Of a stretch of 64,000 nt of DNA, positions 9,237 to 32,185 are shown piece by piece. A model generated the notes under the pieces. It worked only from the letters and a program-made list of their open reading frames with translations, ran no database searches and was not told the origin of the DNA. The stretch's first letter is position 1. Every line of letters starts with the position of its first letter. Made by a program: the position numbers and the translations under genes. The stretch comes from Cucumis sativus (lineage: Eukaryota; Streptophyta; Magnoliopsida; Cucurbitales; Cucurbitaceae): contig NC_026659.2 in assembly GCF_000004075.3 (NCBI RefSeq), positions 24,136,272 to 24,200,271 of the forward strand. The letters run 5' to 3'.

Positions 9237-10247
9237 TTACAATGTCTTGAACTTTCCTGGACAACACTTTCTTTGGGCCTCTTCAGGCCAATCTTCTGAA
9301 TCCACAGAGACACCATTTTGTATGAACTTAAAAGCTTTCTCATGATTCAAAAAACCCATAAACCAGAAGTCAAAATCATCCACAGTCACCACTTGAATGT
9401 ATTTCTTTGCTGGATTGTTTACATTGTTTCTTTGGTTAACTCTCTTCACTTTGTTCACGGGGATCATAACCTGATGGGATAAACAATATTATAGAAAACA
9501 ACAACTTGGTTAGCAACCAGGAAGAAAGAGACATAGTGAGGGCAATTGTCAAATGTAAATGTTGTAAGAAAGGAAATATTAATTACTTTGTAAAATATTT
9601 TGCCAATTTCTCCATGTGGAGAAGAAATGATGATTGGTCTGTCACTGCAGAAAGCAACTACATGGGTGGAAACAAAGATGAGACCTGCTATAGGACCTGC
9701 TGTTGTTGACAAATAACAATGTGCAGAATTCAATAACTTGTCTCCGTGTTCGAGATTGAACATCTTGTGGAATATATTCTCACTTCCTCCAAACTGTAAA
9801 AGTTTTGTCCCCAACCACAGCTTCCCCTTCACCGTTTTGGCTATGTTCGGCGACAGTTTAACTGCATGTCATCATTCCATTGCAACCGTCAAGCATTTTT
9901 AATCCCTCGAATCAAGTATATTTATACATTGTTATCAATGCAGGAAGAATCAAGGCCAATCTCTATCTACGTGGGAAGAGATAAATAGTGCTTTCGGTTT
10001 CTCTAGTTGAATCATGTTTAGATCGACGGAGGGATTTCGAGATATTATGCATTGGATTTATAGAAAACAAGACGAGAAACAGAAGTTTCTAGAAAACAAA
10101 GAGGACAATTCAATCCAATCCATCATTTCATGATCATAGTCAGACAGGAAAGAAGAAGAAAGCAATTTATGTTTACCATGTTCAAGGATTCCATTAACAA
10201 AGCTGTAACCTCTTCTTCCAAGCTCTCTGATCATTGAACTTGATGAC
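9237..10247 (-). CDS. GEM-like GRAM-domain protein A (divergent, N-terminus short or unresolved)
   Basis: Member of the GEM/ABA-responsive GRAM family, thought to act at membranes or in hormone and cell-fate responses; exact role unknown. Exons: 10247-10177 (ATG at 10234), 9861-9587 and 9470-9237, GT-AG and in frame, giving 188 residues from that ATG. GRAM landmarks are YLSTTAGPIAG, STHVVAFCSD, the TVDDFDFWFMGFLN end, and a basal VKGKLWLG stretch. It lacks the first exon seen in genes B to E (the MKTTIQEH start). Upstream frames hit stops, so either translation begins at 10234 or a farther exon joins at 10247. The C-terminus carries about 20 extra residues rich in charged residues and Cys. 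Its conserved upstream elements are not visible, so it is the most diverged member of the cluster. Confidence 0.75.
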
Positions 10248-17074: not shown

Positions 17075-18089
17075 CTAAGCTTGAGAAGAAAGTGCTTCTT
17101 GAAGACAATTGAATGACTTGTGATAGTTCAAAAATCCCATGAACCAAAACTCATAGTTGTCCACTGTCACTATCTCCATATACTTCTCCGATGGATTCTT
17201 CACATTTTCACTTTGGAAAACTCTTGTTATTTTCCCTAGGGGAATTGTAACCTGAAAGAAATACATTTATTTTTGGAAACATTAGTATATGAGGGAAAAA
17301 AAAGAGAACTAAATTAAATTGAAAAAGAAGAAGGGGTTTAAATTTAATTACTTTATAGTGAATTCTGATATGATCTCCATTTGGGGAAGCGATTTTGATG
17401 GATTTGTCACTACAAAAAGCAATTTTATGAGTGGAAATGAAGAGAAGACCAGGTAAAGGACCAGCTGTTGTTGATAAATAGCATTGTGAAACCTTCAAAA
17501 GCTTCTCTTCTTCGCTCATTGAAAATAATTTCTTGTAGATTTTCCTTACCCCACCAACTCTCAATATTCTTGCTCCTAAGCTCAACTTTCCCTTCACTGT
17601 TTCTGATATCTTGGCTCCTAATTTCACTGCAAAATTAAACCTCAAAATCATCACAAATACGCTCTGTAAACATCGTCTTAGTTTCATGTGGCATGATCAA
17701 GTTCAAATTTTAAATTCAAATTGTAGATGAAAAGATTCTTGAATTGATATAAAAGACTTACCGTGTTCTCGAAGCGCATGAATGATATTATCTGTTTTTT
17801 TTCCATTTTTATTGAGTCTATTCAAGATACAATCCTTTCCATTATCTGCAACAATAATTCAAAAACCAAATCATTCAGCAAACTAATATTCAAACATTCA
17901 ACAACTTTTAACAACAGTACTTTTTCCTTCTTCTTATAAGGTCTTACATTTCTTAATTGATTGAGATCCATCGTCTGAAGAAGATATATGGAGATATTTT
18001 GAGGGATCACCCAACAATCTAGCTCTTGCAAGACCCAATGACTTCATTTGAATTCCAAGAACAATTTGCTCTTGAATTGTAGTCTTCAT
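17075..18089 (-). CDS. GEM-like GRAM-domain protein B
   Basis: Four exons, 18089-17948, 17845-17762, 17626-17352 and 17251-17075, all GT-AG and in frame, give 225 residues. The start ATG opens MKTTIQEQIVLG, matching the start of C, D and E. Exon 3 encodes the basic VKGKLSLGARIL segment and the GRAM core (YLSTTAGPLPG, STHKIAFCSDKS); exon 4 completes the GRAM domain (TVDNYEFWFMGFLNY). Exon 3 differs from that of C and E at a single synonymous base in 275, whereas exon 2 differs at about ten of 84 and exon 4 is strongly diverged, pointing to exon-limited gene conversion. A reverse-strand TATA-like CTCTTAAATA lies about 115 bases upstream. Function is inferred only from the family: Arabidopsis members respond to ABA and stress. 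Confidence 0.9.
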
Positions 18090-18200
18090 TTTTCTTTCAA
18101 ATCGAAGAAGAAAAAATATTAAGCAGAGAGAAAATAACTCGAGAGAGAGAGAGAGAGTAGGTTTGTGAATTTGTGTTGGGATGAAGGAACTGAGTTGATG

Positions 18201-23294: not shown

Positions 23295-24273
23295 ATGAAA
23301 ACTACAATTCAAGAACATATGTTGGGATTTCAAATGTCATTGGCTCTGTCACGAGCTAGATCTTTGGGTCATTCTTCAAAGCATCTTCATGTATCTTCTT
23401 CAGACGATAGAATATCTCAATCGTCTATAAAAAAATGTAAGAGCTATATATATATATATAAGAACATAAAACGATTTCTTTTTATTTTGGTTGAATATAT
23501 ATAAAATAGTTTGCTAACTAAATTTGGTTTTTGAGTTGCTTGTAGATAATGGAAAAGATTGTATCTTGAAAAGGCTAAACAAAAATGGAAAGAAAACGGA
23601 CAATATCATTCATGCACTCCGAGAACATGGTAAGTCTTCTTTTATAGATATCACCGATCTAGTAGTACATTATGCAAAGTGTAATTAATTTTGATGATTT
23701 GAGGTTGAATTTTGCAGTGAAATTAGGAGCCAAGATATCAGAAACAGTGAAGGGAAAGTTGAGCTTAGGAGCAAGAATATTGAGAGTTGGTGGGGTAAGG
23801 AAAATCTACAAGAAATTATTTTCAATGAGCGAAGAAGAGAAGCTTTTGAAGGTTTCACAATGCTATTTATCAACAACAGCTGGTCCTTTACCTGGTCTTC
23901 TCTTCATTTCCACTCATAAAATTGCTTTTTGTAGTGATAAATCCATCAAAATCGCTTCCCCAAATGGAGATCATATCAGAATTCACTATAAAGTAAGTCT
24001 CTAATTTATATATATATACACACTCAAATACCTGATCAGTTTTTAATTTGGTTAATTAAAATTTTCATTAGTACTGATGAAGGTTAATTAATGTTTGCAT
24101 TACAGGTTGTGATTCCAAAGGAGAAGGTGATGAGAGTAAATGAAAGCGAGAATGTAAAGAAAACATCAGAAAGATACATACAAATAGAGACATTGGATAA
24201 CTTTGAATTTTGGTTTATGGGATTTCTAAATTATCAATCAACTTTCAACTCTCTTCAGGAAGTAGCTAGATGA
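23295..24273 (+). CDS. GEM-like GRAM-domain protein C
   Basis: Exons 23295-23436, 23546-23629, 23718-23992 and 24106-24273, GT-AG and in frame, give 222 residues. The start is the ATG opening MKTTIQEHMLGFQMSLAL; the frame reads on upstream without another ATG. Exon 2 gives DNIIHALREH, exon 3 the basic VKGKLSLGAR stretch and GRAM core, exon 4 the end WFMGFLNYQSTFNSLQEVAR. It is the only plus-strand member of the cluster. From exon 2 through exon 4, including introns 2 and 3, it is nearly identical to gene E, with exon 3 identical, while exon 1 differs at about 17 of 142 bases and the last codons differ. Family role: GRAM proteins bind phosphoinositides or membrane partners; Arabidopsis GEM-like members are ABA and stress responsive. 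Confidence 0.92.
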
Positions 24274-26187
24274 TGGGAAATTATATGTGTATATATAGAA
24301 ATATTGAGTTTTTGTATATTCTAATTCAATCTAATGAGAAAATTCAATCCTTTTTTCTCTTGAAATATTTTTGAATCCTGTCAAGTGTCGAATAATAGTT
24401 TAATTTAGCATATTGTTTAAGTTTAGTCAAATTTGATGAAATTAAAAGGTTAGAGAAGATTTTATTCTTTCATAGGGTAAACTGAGTTCAATAGTTTCTC
24501 TTATATATAAAGGTGTGTTTGGAGCAAGAATAACTATCTTTAAGACTATAATAATTCATACGATCTTGAGATGTTAAATACTATTTTTTTTACTTCCAAT
24601 TAGCTACAACTAACCCCTATTTCAAAGCTTTTATTTTCTGTCATAATTTTTATTATTCTACATTTATAATTATTTTTATCTTCAGCTAGAATATTTACTA
24701 TTTCTTTCTGATTTCATACTAAAATAATTCACAACCCAACTTAAAATAACCTATAGGACTATAATAACCAACTTCTTGCTCTAAATGCCCTAAAAAAATA
24801 ATTAACTTTAGAATATAGTATTATATATGGACGGAGAAGACTAAATTGTTTCTAGTACAGACCAAACCAAAAGTGTATCTTATGTTTCAAAGAGATGGTG
24901 TGAGTTATTCACGTTTTATTTGATATGGTTTAGAGAGAAAAATTGAAAGCTAAGTATATGTAATGGTAATAAAGTATATCAATGTAATTCCATAGAATCA
25001 TTATGTTTGGATAATGGTAGATGAAAAAACACATAAGCCAAAATGAAGGAACAAGAAAATTATTGAAGATGCAAAAAGGCCCATAACATGAGTGATTCAA
25101 TACATTTAGTTTCCTATATATATATCCACTCATCTTGGTACTTCTTTTTTTATCAAACAAAATTAAACTAGTTTCTGCATGTAAAGTGATGATATCAAAA
25201 CATACGTCTAGATCCTTATATATATAATCTTAAACAAACAAACAAAAAAAGAGAGAATGATTTTGCTATATATATATGTTGAAAAATGAGATTTAAAATA
25301 TAACATGTGATATATGGATTTATATTAAACGATGATGATCGGAGCATACCAATAAAGGGCTATGGAGAGACAAACAAACTTTGTTTTATCCCAGCTAAAA
25401 TATCCATCGAAGTAACACACCTTTAAGAAAAGAAAGATAGAAAAAGATTACCAAACATAATTTTGTTACGTCTTCTTTCAAAAAAATTAAAATATAATCA
25501 ACTTTCCTTATCTCTATGTTTCAATCAAAATTCCCAAGTTATTATCTGTCACAGCACTGATCTAAAGAAAAATTATAAAGTATATGCATCACATACAATA
25601 ACTTTAGAGCTGGCAAACTTTATTACTTTCTGTATATGGTCAGCAATGATATATTAAGAGATTTTGAATAATGAGGAAAAAGAAAAGAAAAGAAAAGAAC
25701 AGTGGATGAGTCAAAATAAAAGGCCAAATCTCATTATATGTTTTTTGTCGAAATTACATTCTAAAAAGGGGAATATATATATATGAAAGTGCTTTGGGAA
25801 TAATGTCAAAATTCCAACTTCTTTCCTAGGTGATGTTTAGAAGGTTTATATATATAGTCCAGTTCGTGTTTGGTATTTAAAAACGTAAGAATAGATTCAA
25901 TATATTCTAATATCAACTACCATATTGTGATAATTGTTTGTGGAGTTATAGTATTTGCAGAAGTTATCACATCCTCAAGGCGCAAATGCATGATTTAATA
26001 CAACAAATATAATGGGTCATACTATTGTTCGTGGTGAATCATTTGACCTTGGAAAAAGGAGTAGGTTGTGGGTAGAAACGAAGTTATTAGTATTTTGAAA
26101 AAGAATTCAGTGAGTTAACTGACACACAGTGTTTTCATTTTAATTAAGTTAATGAGAAATGTTAATCACTTGTTTACGACTATGCAG
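24274..26187. other. Intergenic region after gene C
   Basis: AT-rich, without a supported gene. Contains copy 2 of the conserved intergenic block (25545-25830), which lies in the same orientation as the copies upstream of B and D although gene C is inverted. Confidence 0.55.
25545..25830. repeat. Conserved intergenic block, copy 2
   Basis: Shares CACAGCACTGATC, ATGCATCACATACAATAAC, TTTAGAGCTGGCAAACTTTA, GTGGATGAGTCAAAAT, ACATTCTAAAAAGGGGA and AAAGTGCTTTGGGAATAATG with 29500-29840, in the same order and orientation. Confidence 0.7.
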
Positions 26188-26985
26188 GAAACAGATGCAG
26201 TTAGAGCCATGAAGTTGGAGTACTTATCCAACGACTTATCACCAACATCAATTGATGCACAAGCATTTAGAAATATTAAAAATCTTAAATTGCTTATCCT
26301 TAGAAATATAACATTTTCTTCAGGTATGTTTGAGTATAGTCTTAATAAGTTCAAGTGGATTTTATCTAGATTTGGAATTAAATTTTTGGTGAAAGATGGG
26401 CTTGTTGGACTAGACATGCAGCATTCTTGCATCAAACATTTGGGGAATAGATTTGAGGTAAATTAAAGTTGGTAGTTTGTGAGCCAGATTTTTCCAGAAA
26501 TATTATTTATTATGACGTACTTTCTTTTTTCATACTGTGTTTAGAATTGTGAAGGGTTAAAGCATGTTGATCTCAGTTACTGTGAGCTAGCTCTTGGAGG
26601 ACATTCCCTACTTATCTGCTGCAGTAAACCTTGAGTATTTGTATCTAAGAGGGTGCGTAAGTTTAAAAATGATTCACGAGTCTGTTGCTTCTCTTAACAA
26701 GTTTATAATCTTAGACCTTGAGGGTTGTGTTAATCTTGAAAAGCTTCCTAGCTACATCAGGTTAAAATATCTTGATTCGTTCTGTCTTTCGGGCTGCCGT
26801 AAACTTCAACGAGTTCCAGAATTTGATGAAAACATGAAATCTCTAACAAGGATGATTTTAGACTATACTGCCCATAGAGGAGTTACCTGCATCGATTGAA
26901 CATCTTGCTAAGCTTGAGTTTTTAAGCCTGATAGGTTGTGCAAACCTCTTAGCTCTTCCAAGTGATTTTTTTTTGTTCGTTACAT
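26188..26985 (+). pseudogene. TIR-NBS-LRR (TMV resistance protein N-like) LRR fragment, broken
   Basis: Only the LRR-side portion of a plant NLR is present. The fragment starts at a splice-acceptor-like site (TATGCAG) with TDAVRAMKLEYLSNDLSP and IDAQAFRNIKNLKLLILRN. It then has a probable intron 26459-26545, then LKHVDLSYCEL, a frameshift near 26585, LEYLYLRGCVSLKMIHESVA and ILDLEGCVNLEKLP. A second frameshift near 26870 precedes IEELPASIEHLAKLEF. Neither TIR nor NB-ARC is nearby. The style is close to cucurbit TNL genes as I remember them. Two frame breaks and the missing domains make it a non-functional relic inserted between GEM-like genes C and D. Confidence 0.8.
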
Positions 26986-27265: not shown

Positions 27266-28318
27266 TCAAAGTTTTGTTTTTACTAACACTTCAAGAGAAT
27301 TGAAAATTGATTGATAATTATTTAATAATCCCATAAACCAAAACTCAAGGTTGTCCACTGTCACTATTTGTATATATTTTTCTGAATCTGTCTTAACATT
27401 CTTCTGATCACTTTCATTTACTCCCATCACCTTCTCCATTGGAATCACAACCTATAAAAATTAATTAACCTTCATCATTAATAATTATATATATCTTAAT
27501 TCATATATAACATATATAGATATATAGATATCATAATAGACTTATAATAATTAAAGATGCTTACTTTATAGTGAATTCTAACATAATCATTATCTCCATT
27601 TGGGGGAGAGAGTACTGTGATGGATTTGGCGCTGCAAAAAGCAATTTTGTGAGTGGAAAGGAAGAGAAGGCCACCCAAAGGTCCAGCCGTTGTTGATAAG
27701 TAACATTGTGAAACCTTCAAAAGCTTCTCTTCTTCATTCATTGGAAATAATTTCTTGTACATTTTTCTCATCCCACCAACTCTTAAAGTTCTTCCTCCTA
27801 AACCCAACTTTCCCTTTATTTTTTCTGATATCTTACCTCCTAATTTCACTGCAAAATTCAAACCTCAAAATCATCACAATTACGCTCTATAATGTTCCAA
27901 ATCATCACAACTACTAACATAGGATAGTTTTCATTCAAAGTAATTGGGCACATGTCAAATTCCAATTCAAATTATTTTGGACGAAAAAGACTCGAATTTT
28001 TAAAGAAGACTTACCATGTTCTTGGAGTGCATGAATGATATCGTCTAACATGTCTGTTTTTCCTTCATTTTTGTTGAGTCTATTCAAGATCCAATCTTTT
28101 CCATTACCTGTACAACAATTTAAAGACCAAATTAGTTAGCAAAAACTATTTAAAAAAACTCTTAGTCTTCAATCTTAATCTCGTTTACCTTTCTTAAGAG
28201 ATCCATTGTTTGAAGAAGATATGTCAAGATGCTTCGAGGAATGGCCCAAATATCTAGCTTTTGCTAGAGCCAATGTCATCTGAAATTCTAGCATATGTTC
28301 TTGAATCGTAGTTTTCAT
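27266..28318 (-). CDS. GEM-like GRAM-domain protein D
   Basis: Exons 28318-28189, 28107-28015, 27848-27565 and 27451-27266, GT-AG and in frame, give 230 residues starting MKTTIQEHMLEFQMTLAL. Compared with B, C and E, exon 2 has three extra codons (within KTDMLDDIIHAL), exon 3 has three extra codons (SPPNGDNDYVRIHYK) and exon 1 is shorter. GRAM landmarks are YLSTTAGPLGG, STHKIAFCSAKS and TVDNLEFWFMGLLNN, ending in VKTKL. Unlike B, C and E its exon 3 is not homogenised, so it is useful as the unconverted reference copy. The upstream region has the shared TATA-like site (28426-28434) and both conserved elements. Confidence 0.9.
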
Positions 28319-31238: not shown

Positions 31239-32185
31239 CTACCACTGTAGAGAGTTGAAAGTTGATTGATAATTTAGAAATCCCATAAACCAAAATTCAA
31301 AGTTATCCAATGTCTCTATTTGTATGTATCTTTCTGATGTTTTCTTTACATTCTCGCTTTCATTTACTCTCATCACCTTCTCCTTTGGAATCACAACCTG
31401 TAATGCAAACATTAATTAACCTTCATCAGTACTAATGAAAATTTTAATTAACCAAATTAAAAACTGATAAGGTATATTAGTGTATATATATATATAAATT
31501 AGAGACTTACTTTATAGTGAATTCTGATATGATCTCCATTTGGGGAAGCGATTTTGATGGATTTATCACTACAAAAAGCAATTTTATGAGTGGAAATGAA
31601 GAGAAGACCAGGTAAAGGACCAGCTGTTGTTGATAAATAGCATTGTGAAACCTTCAAAAGCTTCTCTTCTTCGCTCATTGAAAATAATTTCTTGTAGATT
31701 TTCCTTACCCCACCAACTCTCAATATTCTTGCTCCTAAGCTCAACTTTCCCTTCACTGTTTCTGATATCTTGGCTCCTAATTTCACTGCAAAATTCAGCC
31801 TCAAATCATCAAAATTAATTACACTTTGCATAATGTACCAGATCGATGATATCTATAAAAAAAAGACTTACCATGTTCTCGGAGCGCATGAATGATATTG
31901 TCCGTTTTCTTTCCATTTTTGTTTAGCCTATCCAAGATACAATCTTTTCCATTATCTACAAGTAACTCAAAAACCAAATTTAGTTAGCAAACTATTTTAT
32001 ATATATTCAACCAAAATGAAATATTTTTTTTTTTCTTCACTCTTACATTTTTTAATTGACGATTGAAATCCATCATCTGAAGAAGATAAATGAAGACGAT
32101 TCGAAGGATGACTCAAATATCTAGCCCGTGACAAAGCCAATGACATTGGAAATCCCAACATATGTTCTTGAATTGTAGTTTTCAT
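31239..32185 (-). CDS. GEM-like GRAM-domain protein E
   Basis: Exons 32185-32047, 31955-31872, 31785-31511 and 31397-31239, GT-AG and in frame, give 218 residues starting MKTTIQEHMLGFPMSLAL. Exon 3 is identical to gene C over 275 bases and exon 4 is identical until the codon before the final QW-stop, where C continues with EVAR. Introns 2 and 3 are also almost identical to C. Exon 1 is about 12% different from C, so the shared tract is a patch and not the whole gene. The stop is a TAG directly after FNSLQW, making this copy four residues shorter than C. It keeps the GRAM core (YLSTTAGPLPG, LDNFEFWFMGFLNY). Confidence 0.9.

Follow-up and report, generated by a model that had tools for sequence, protein, structure and literature searches.

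Exon 3 of a cucumber GRAM-domain gene was probably copied in a recent interlocus gene conversion

Exon 3 of gene B, a member of a cluster of four-exon genes in Cucumis sativus, is nearly identical to exon 3 of its cluster neighbours C and E, whereas the other exons of B have diverged strongly from theirs. In our view this pattern very probably originated in a recent interlocus (non-allelic) conversion involving B and the lineage of C/E, by which exon 3 was copied in a tract of about 250–290 bp. What we observe is an identity tract, the position of its ends, a switch in the grouping of the genes, a sister gene (D) that stayed unconverted, and two tracts that differ in shape; from these we infer the repair of a break, as well as a direction, an order of events and an age.

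Results

The gene cluster

The window, by which we mean the whole stretch of 64,000 nucleotides analysed, covers 24.14–24.20 Mb of its contig, and the genome searched comprised 226.6 Mb in 88 contigs. Genes B, C, D and E lie clustered in the window, and each has a complete reading frame with exact splice junctions (Table 1); in B, exon 3 is bordered by AG and GT, and the four-exon open reading frame is uninterrupted. A fifth, distant copy, gene A, occupies approximately 9.2–10.3 kb of the window, and a pair of paralogues, F and G, is located on the same contig, 8 Mb from the cluster. A Pfam scan of the B and C proteins identified one GRAM domain in each, scoring 58.1 bits in B (residues 107–222) and 59 bits in C (cut-off, 23.6). 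Exon 3 encodes only about the N-terminal half of this domain (profile positions 4–47); an earlier note on this DNA had spoken of the "GRAM core".

Table 1 Genes of the cluster and the two tracts (positions in the window)
Feature	Position	Strand	Exons or extent	Remark
Gene A, exons 3–4 region	9237–9862	−		Distant paralogue, not converted
Gene B	17075–18089	−	18089–17948, 17845–17762, 17626–17352, 17251–17075	Splice model
Gene B exon 3	17352–17626	−	275 bp	Probable converted tract; splice model, 1/275 versus C and E
Largest B/C/E identity tract	17348–17636	−	289 bp	First B–C mismatches at 17637 and 17347
Smallest tract extent	17367–17614	−		Outermost of the 46 sites at which D differs from B=C=E
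Gene C	23295–24273	+	23295–23436, 23546–23629, 23718–23992, 24106–24273	Candidate donor
Gene D	27266–28318	−	Exon 3, 27848–27565	Unconverted sister, internal control
C/E tract, shown in E	31249–31838	−	Final 53 bp of intron 2 through exon 4 base 149	
Gene E	31239–32185	−	32185–32047, 31955–31872, 31785–31511, 31397–31239	Candidate donor

Silent identity is confined to exon 3

The earlier note had reported that exon 3 of B differs from that of C and E by a single synonymous base in 275, and this is what we found: at position 17406, B has GAC and both C and E have GAT, each encoding Asp. Exon 3 of C and that of E are identical (0/275), and the amino acids encoded by the exon are the same in all three genes. 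By contrast, B and C differ at 26 of 136 positions in exon 1 (19%), 11 of 84 in exon 2 (13%) and 57 of 168 in exon 4 (34%), and at 29/100, 30/88 and 32/84 positions in introns 1, 2 and 3 (29%, 34% and 38%). With 10 of 84 differences between B and E, the count of "about ten" given previously for exon 2 holds for both comparisons. Its descriptions of exon 4 as clearly different and of intron 3 as unrelated just past the donor also stand, B and C/E having only GTAA in common before the first mismatch.

We then compared synonymous divergence exon by exon, one of the checks that had been proposed. For B and C, dS in exons 1–4 was 0.64, 1.31, 0.017 and saturated, respectively; the 0.017 of exon 3 compares with 1.29 when the remaining exons are pooled (Fisher P = 2e-15); for B and E, the corresponding values were 0.017 and 1.46 (P = 7e-16). 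Both pairs thus have near-zero divergence in exon 3 only. If the level of synonymous divergence outside exon 3 is taken as the expectation, the binomial probability of at most one synonymous difference in exon 3 is 4e-24 for B–C and 7e-26 for B–E. At 49 silent polymorphic sites where the encoded amino acid does not vary among the four genes, B agrees with C at 13 of 13 sites in exon 3 and at 4 of 36 elsewhere, whereas the agreement of C with D (0/13 versus 20/36) and of B with D (0/13 versus 13/36) is absent from exon 3 and present outside it.

A GENECONV-like permutation, the other check proposed, was carried out on 937 gap-free columns, 323 of them polymorphic, with 20,000 shuffles. The longest concordant runs of B with C and of B with E each comprised 31 polymorphic sites, all in exon 3, and exceeded the runs in every shuffle, the longest of which reached 15 sites for B–C and 13 for B–E (P at the floor of 5e-5). 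This test is somewhat liberal, as rates vary along the gene, and it also flagged a D–E run (P = 5e-5) and a short B–D run (P = 0.008). The comparison of silent sites exon by exon is independent of the permutation. The B–D run is located at 17713–17721, in the middle of B intron 2, and the D–E run at 18109–18149, aligned to the 5′ flank of B. These short runs may represent older small exchanges, or uneven rates.

In a genome-wide DNA search with exon 3, six places were scored, namely B, C, E and D and two further paralogues; D showed 84% identity and the two paralogues 76–77%, and none of the six scored matches beyond B, C and E was near-identical.

Genome assembly is known to be error-prone where tandem copies contain near-identical exons, and a fault in the consensus or in read mapping could in principle have transferred exon 3 of C or E into B. 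However, the base of B at 17406 matches A, D, F and G but not C/E, and whole-genome searches with B and with B intron 2 each returned one place of full identity. The splice sites and the reading frame of B are intact, and the window contains no N. We therefore consider an assembly error quite unlikely.

Gene D as an internal control

Exon 3 of D differs from that of B, C and E at 38–39 of 275 aligned bases, with dS of 0.48–0.51, and the codon alignment of the exon contains 46 sites at which D differs from B=C=E. This gene bears on the possibility that exon 3 is fixed by extreme purifying selection or by a hidden nucleotide function, such as a regulatory element or an overlapping RNA. The identity of the encoded amino acids in B, C and E would be in keeping with such a constraint. 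Since exon 3 of D varies at silent sites, however, nucleotide constraint fails to explain the identity, and the exon differs by 25–28% in F and G as well. We rejected this explanation as extremely improbable; the previous argument that purifying selection cannot account for identical silent sites is borne out by D. We also considered whether long-standing conversion had left a GC bias and rejected this, as the GC content of exon 3 (0.36–0.37) and its GC3 (0.32–0.33) are equal in B, C, E and the unconverted D.

Outgroup trees were built from exons 3 and 4. The nucleotide tree of exon 4 joined C, E and D with 100% support and placed B outside, whereas that of exon 3 placed B with C/E (support 78%); the protein tree of exon 3 gave no resolution because the sequences are identical. 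Grouping of B with C/E, rather than of C/E with D, is found in exon 3 only. In exon 1 alone, B, C/E and D are about equally far apart. Exon 4 of B (17075–17251) is 33–35% different from that of C, D and E and 32–34% different from that of F and G, whereas in its exons 1 and 2 the gene is 12–21% different from C, D and E. B may be a patchwork produced by two or more older exchanges.

The tract ends lie close to the exon borders

The tract ends fall within 17614–17637 and 17347–17367, two intervals of about 20 bp that both include an exon border. At the edges, B, C and E have 10 bases of intron 2 and 4 bases of intron 3 in common. Just outside the tract, the end of B intron 2 is D-like and unlike C/E, and B has therefore kept its own intron to within about ten bases of the exon. 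Insertion of the exon by a non-homologous route was rejected, as the splice sites and frame are exact and informative C/E intron bases are lacking in B.

Such ends raise the question of whether B exon 3 was rewritten from spliced C/E RNA or cDNA, so that the exon borders themselves set the limits of the tract. Both ends lie within about 20 bp of an exon border and B has no informative C/E intron base, as this explanation predicts, but with introns so diverged a genomic donor should give almost identical ends. The bases at the edges, which D has as well, are uninformative and fit a genomic and an RNA donor equally. The usual marks of RNA- or cDNA-templated conversion are intron loss and copying across joined exons. 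Neither is found in B, in which all three introns are present and the neighbouring exons 2 and 4 were not copied. An RNA template is thus, in our estimate, an improbable source; if it were true, it would amount to exon-by-exon editing of a plant gene family without loss of introns.

The length of matching sequence suggests why the tract of a genomic conversion would be exon-shaped. We compared perfect words segment by segment, using D as an unconverted stand-in: the longest in exon 3 between C and D is 32 bp, whereas those between B and C outside exon 3 are at most 17 bp (intron 2, 10 bp; intron 3, 8 bp). The mismatch between B and C in intron 3 is 38%, compared with a mean of 49% and a lowest value of 43% in 20 shuffles; in introns 1 and 2 it is 29% and 34%, compared with shuffle means of 48% and 50% and lowest shuffles of 28% and 34%. 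The last approximately 30 bases of intron 2 can still be aligned between B and C, so that homology fades before exon 3 and does not stop abruptly. Exon 3 is also the longest exon. As it forms the longest and best-matching island and the introns are mostly without homology, an exon-bounded tract is expected, and no special process is needed for its shape. The view that a tract whose ends nearly coincide with an exon is unusual is accordingly weak.

A second exchange, between C and E

C and E have in common a tract of a different shape (Table 1), with 5 substitutions in 590 bp, four of which lie within 16 bp near a TA repeat. As its limits were chosen after inspection, the P value of 1e-13 obtained for it is only descriptive. 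Outside the tract, C and E differ at 15 of 139 positions in exon 1 and 16 of 91 in intron 1. Their synonymous differences number 0 in exon 3 against 9.5 in 75.5 sites elsewhere (Fisher P = 0.002). We considered whether this tract, too, is limited to the exon and rejected the idea, because identity resumes after the four differences by the TA repeat, early in intron 3, and extends to base 149 of exon 4. The four clustered differences are located at 31469–31484 in E and 24019–24034 in C. Where the tract stops, the last codons (31239–31250 and 24255–24273) give ...SLQW in E and ...SLQEVAR in C. The 3′ flank of E aligns somewhat better with D than with C.

At least two exchanges have covered exon 3, that of B with C/E and that of C with E, and the latter pair lacks silent differences in the exon. 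These facts would suit a selection-favoured, recurrent homogenisation of the first GRAM half across the cluster; the earlier note had suggested, from the exon-shaped ends, a repeated homogenisation of the GRAM core. However, the C/E exchange also takes in the greater part of intron 3 and of exon 4; in codon alignments, C and D differ as much in exon 3 (17.2%) as in exon 4 (17.0%), and F and G, which likewise bear no sign of conversion, differ by 23.4% in exon 3 and 20.2% in exon 4. A, which is remote, and D are untouched, and among the paralogues compared in this genome exon 3 is alike in B, C and E only. Two exchanges that both cover exon 3 are expected from its better homology, and recurrence is not something that one genome can show. 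We therefore regard recurrent homogenisation as rather unlikely: the note's proposal of an exon-limited conversion of B exon 3 is supported, while its step from exon-shaped ends to a repeatedly homogenised GRAM core is weak.

Direction, order and age of the conversion

For the conversion between B and the C/E lineage, we envisage the repair of a break in one copy with a linked sister as the template. Pairing would have started in exon 3, where the longest matching stretches are, and the exchange would have halted on both sides, where the diverged introns offered little further homology. A separate exchange would have homogenised C and E over a stretch that starts late in intron 2 and finishes shortly before exon 4 ends.

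Copying from C/E into B is the more likely direction. The synonymous difference between B and D is 0.35 in exon 3 and 0.49 elsewhere, and the exon-3 value is nearer to that between C and D elsewhere (0.34), which favours C/E as the donor, with a bootstrap P of 0.06 that is not significant. At 17406, the base of B is that of A, D, F and G, while H differs, and C/E look derived; copying from the present-day C/E would therefore need a later change common to C and E. The simplest order is that the exchange of B with C or E came first, followed by the change to T and then by the exchange between C and E, although a back-change in B at this position would also do.

B as the donor could also fit. Among the 46 exon-3 sites at which D is different, B/C/E are outgroup-like at 19 and D at 4, with 23 ambiguous, and the branch lengths in exon 3 are 0.023 for B/C/E and 0.187 for D. 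In exon 4 the contrast is weaker, with branches of 0.075 for C/E and 0.162 for D, although the C–D comparison there leans likewise, 13 to 6 with 9 ambiguous. The slow branch means that exon 3 of B/C/E has changed little, which makes donation by B possible.

Silent changes in exon 3 amount to 1 in 60.7 sites. At silent substitution rates of 1.5e-8 to 7e-9, the conversion would be about 0.5–1.2 million years old, with limits of 0.01–6.6 million years.

Discussion

The conversion proposed here is a natural example, and a clean one, of a tract that halts at the loss of homology and has both of its ends mapped to about 20 bp. A further implication is that dS values and trees computed over whole genes in such tandem families mix different histories: B would seem young if judged by exon 3, and old if judged by exon 4.

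Passages of a review on Caenorhabditis paralogues (PMC3966223) state that interlocus conversion has mostly been reported in exons, and that introns diverge faster, may miss the homology threshold and thereby impede conversion. The cases treated in those passages resemble ours in having a short exon tract and linked copies in the same or opposing orientation. They differ from it in that our genes are of a plant, the ends bracket one exon to about 20 bp, and the background dS is about 1.3.

In mammals, the mosaic pairs BMP8A/B, DDX19A/B and TUBG1/2, in the portion of PMC2720389 that describes them, likewise have exons of which part are concerted and part divergent, but their converted fragments span introns too; the filter given there demanded two consecutive exons plus their intron. 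Exons 26a and 26b of Nav1.4 in toxic newts, in the account excerpted from PMC8476164, offer a parallel of single-exon conversion between linked copies, detected with GENECONV, although those tracts are 56–77 bp long and lie in duplicated terminal exons. The same account ties conversion in Taricha to adaptive change.

The primate L/M opsin genes, as outlined in part of PMC3213168, also combine tandem-gene conversion with a different behaviour of exons and introns. Their pattern is the opposite of ours: the introns are homogenised and the central exons are held different by selection. For the primate ADH1 genes, an extract of PMC3409193 indicates that conversions need not follow exon borders.

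As to the identity of the genes, those that come nearest are the GEM-like GRAM-domain genes of plants. B resembles these in having a single GRAM domain in the C-terminal part of the protein, but differs from them in that the domain is recombinant, its first half being C/E-like and its second half its own; the B protein would thus be a natural recombinant of two GRAM-domain halves. Among the matches listed for titles on the GRAM domain in cucumber or Cucumis, or on GEM-like genes, the cluster is unnamed. Between C and D, next to a frame at 26119–26463 that has no such match, lies an LRR-like open frame at 26591–26899 with four weak Pfam LRR matches, all below the cut-off; it may be a piece of an LRR of the resistance-gene type.
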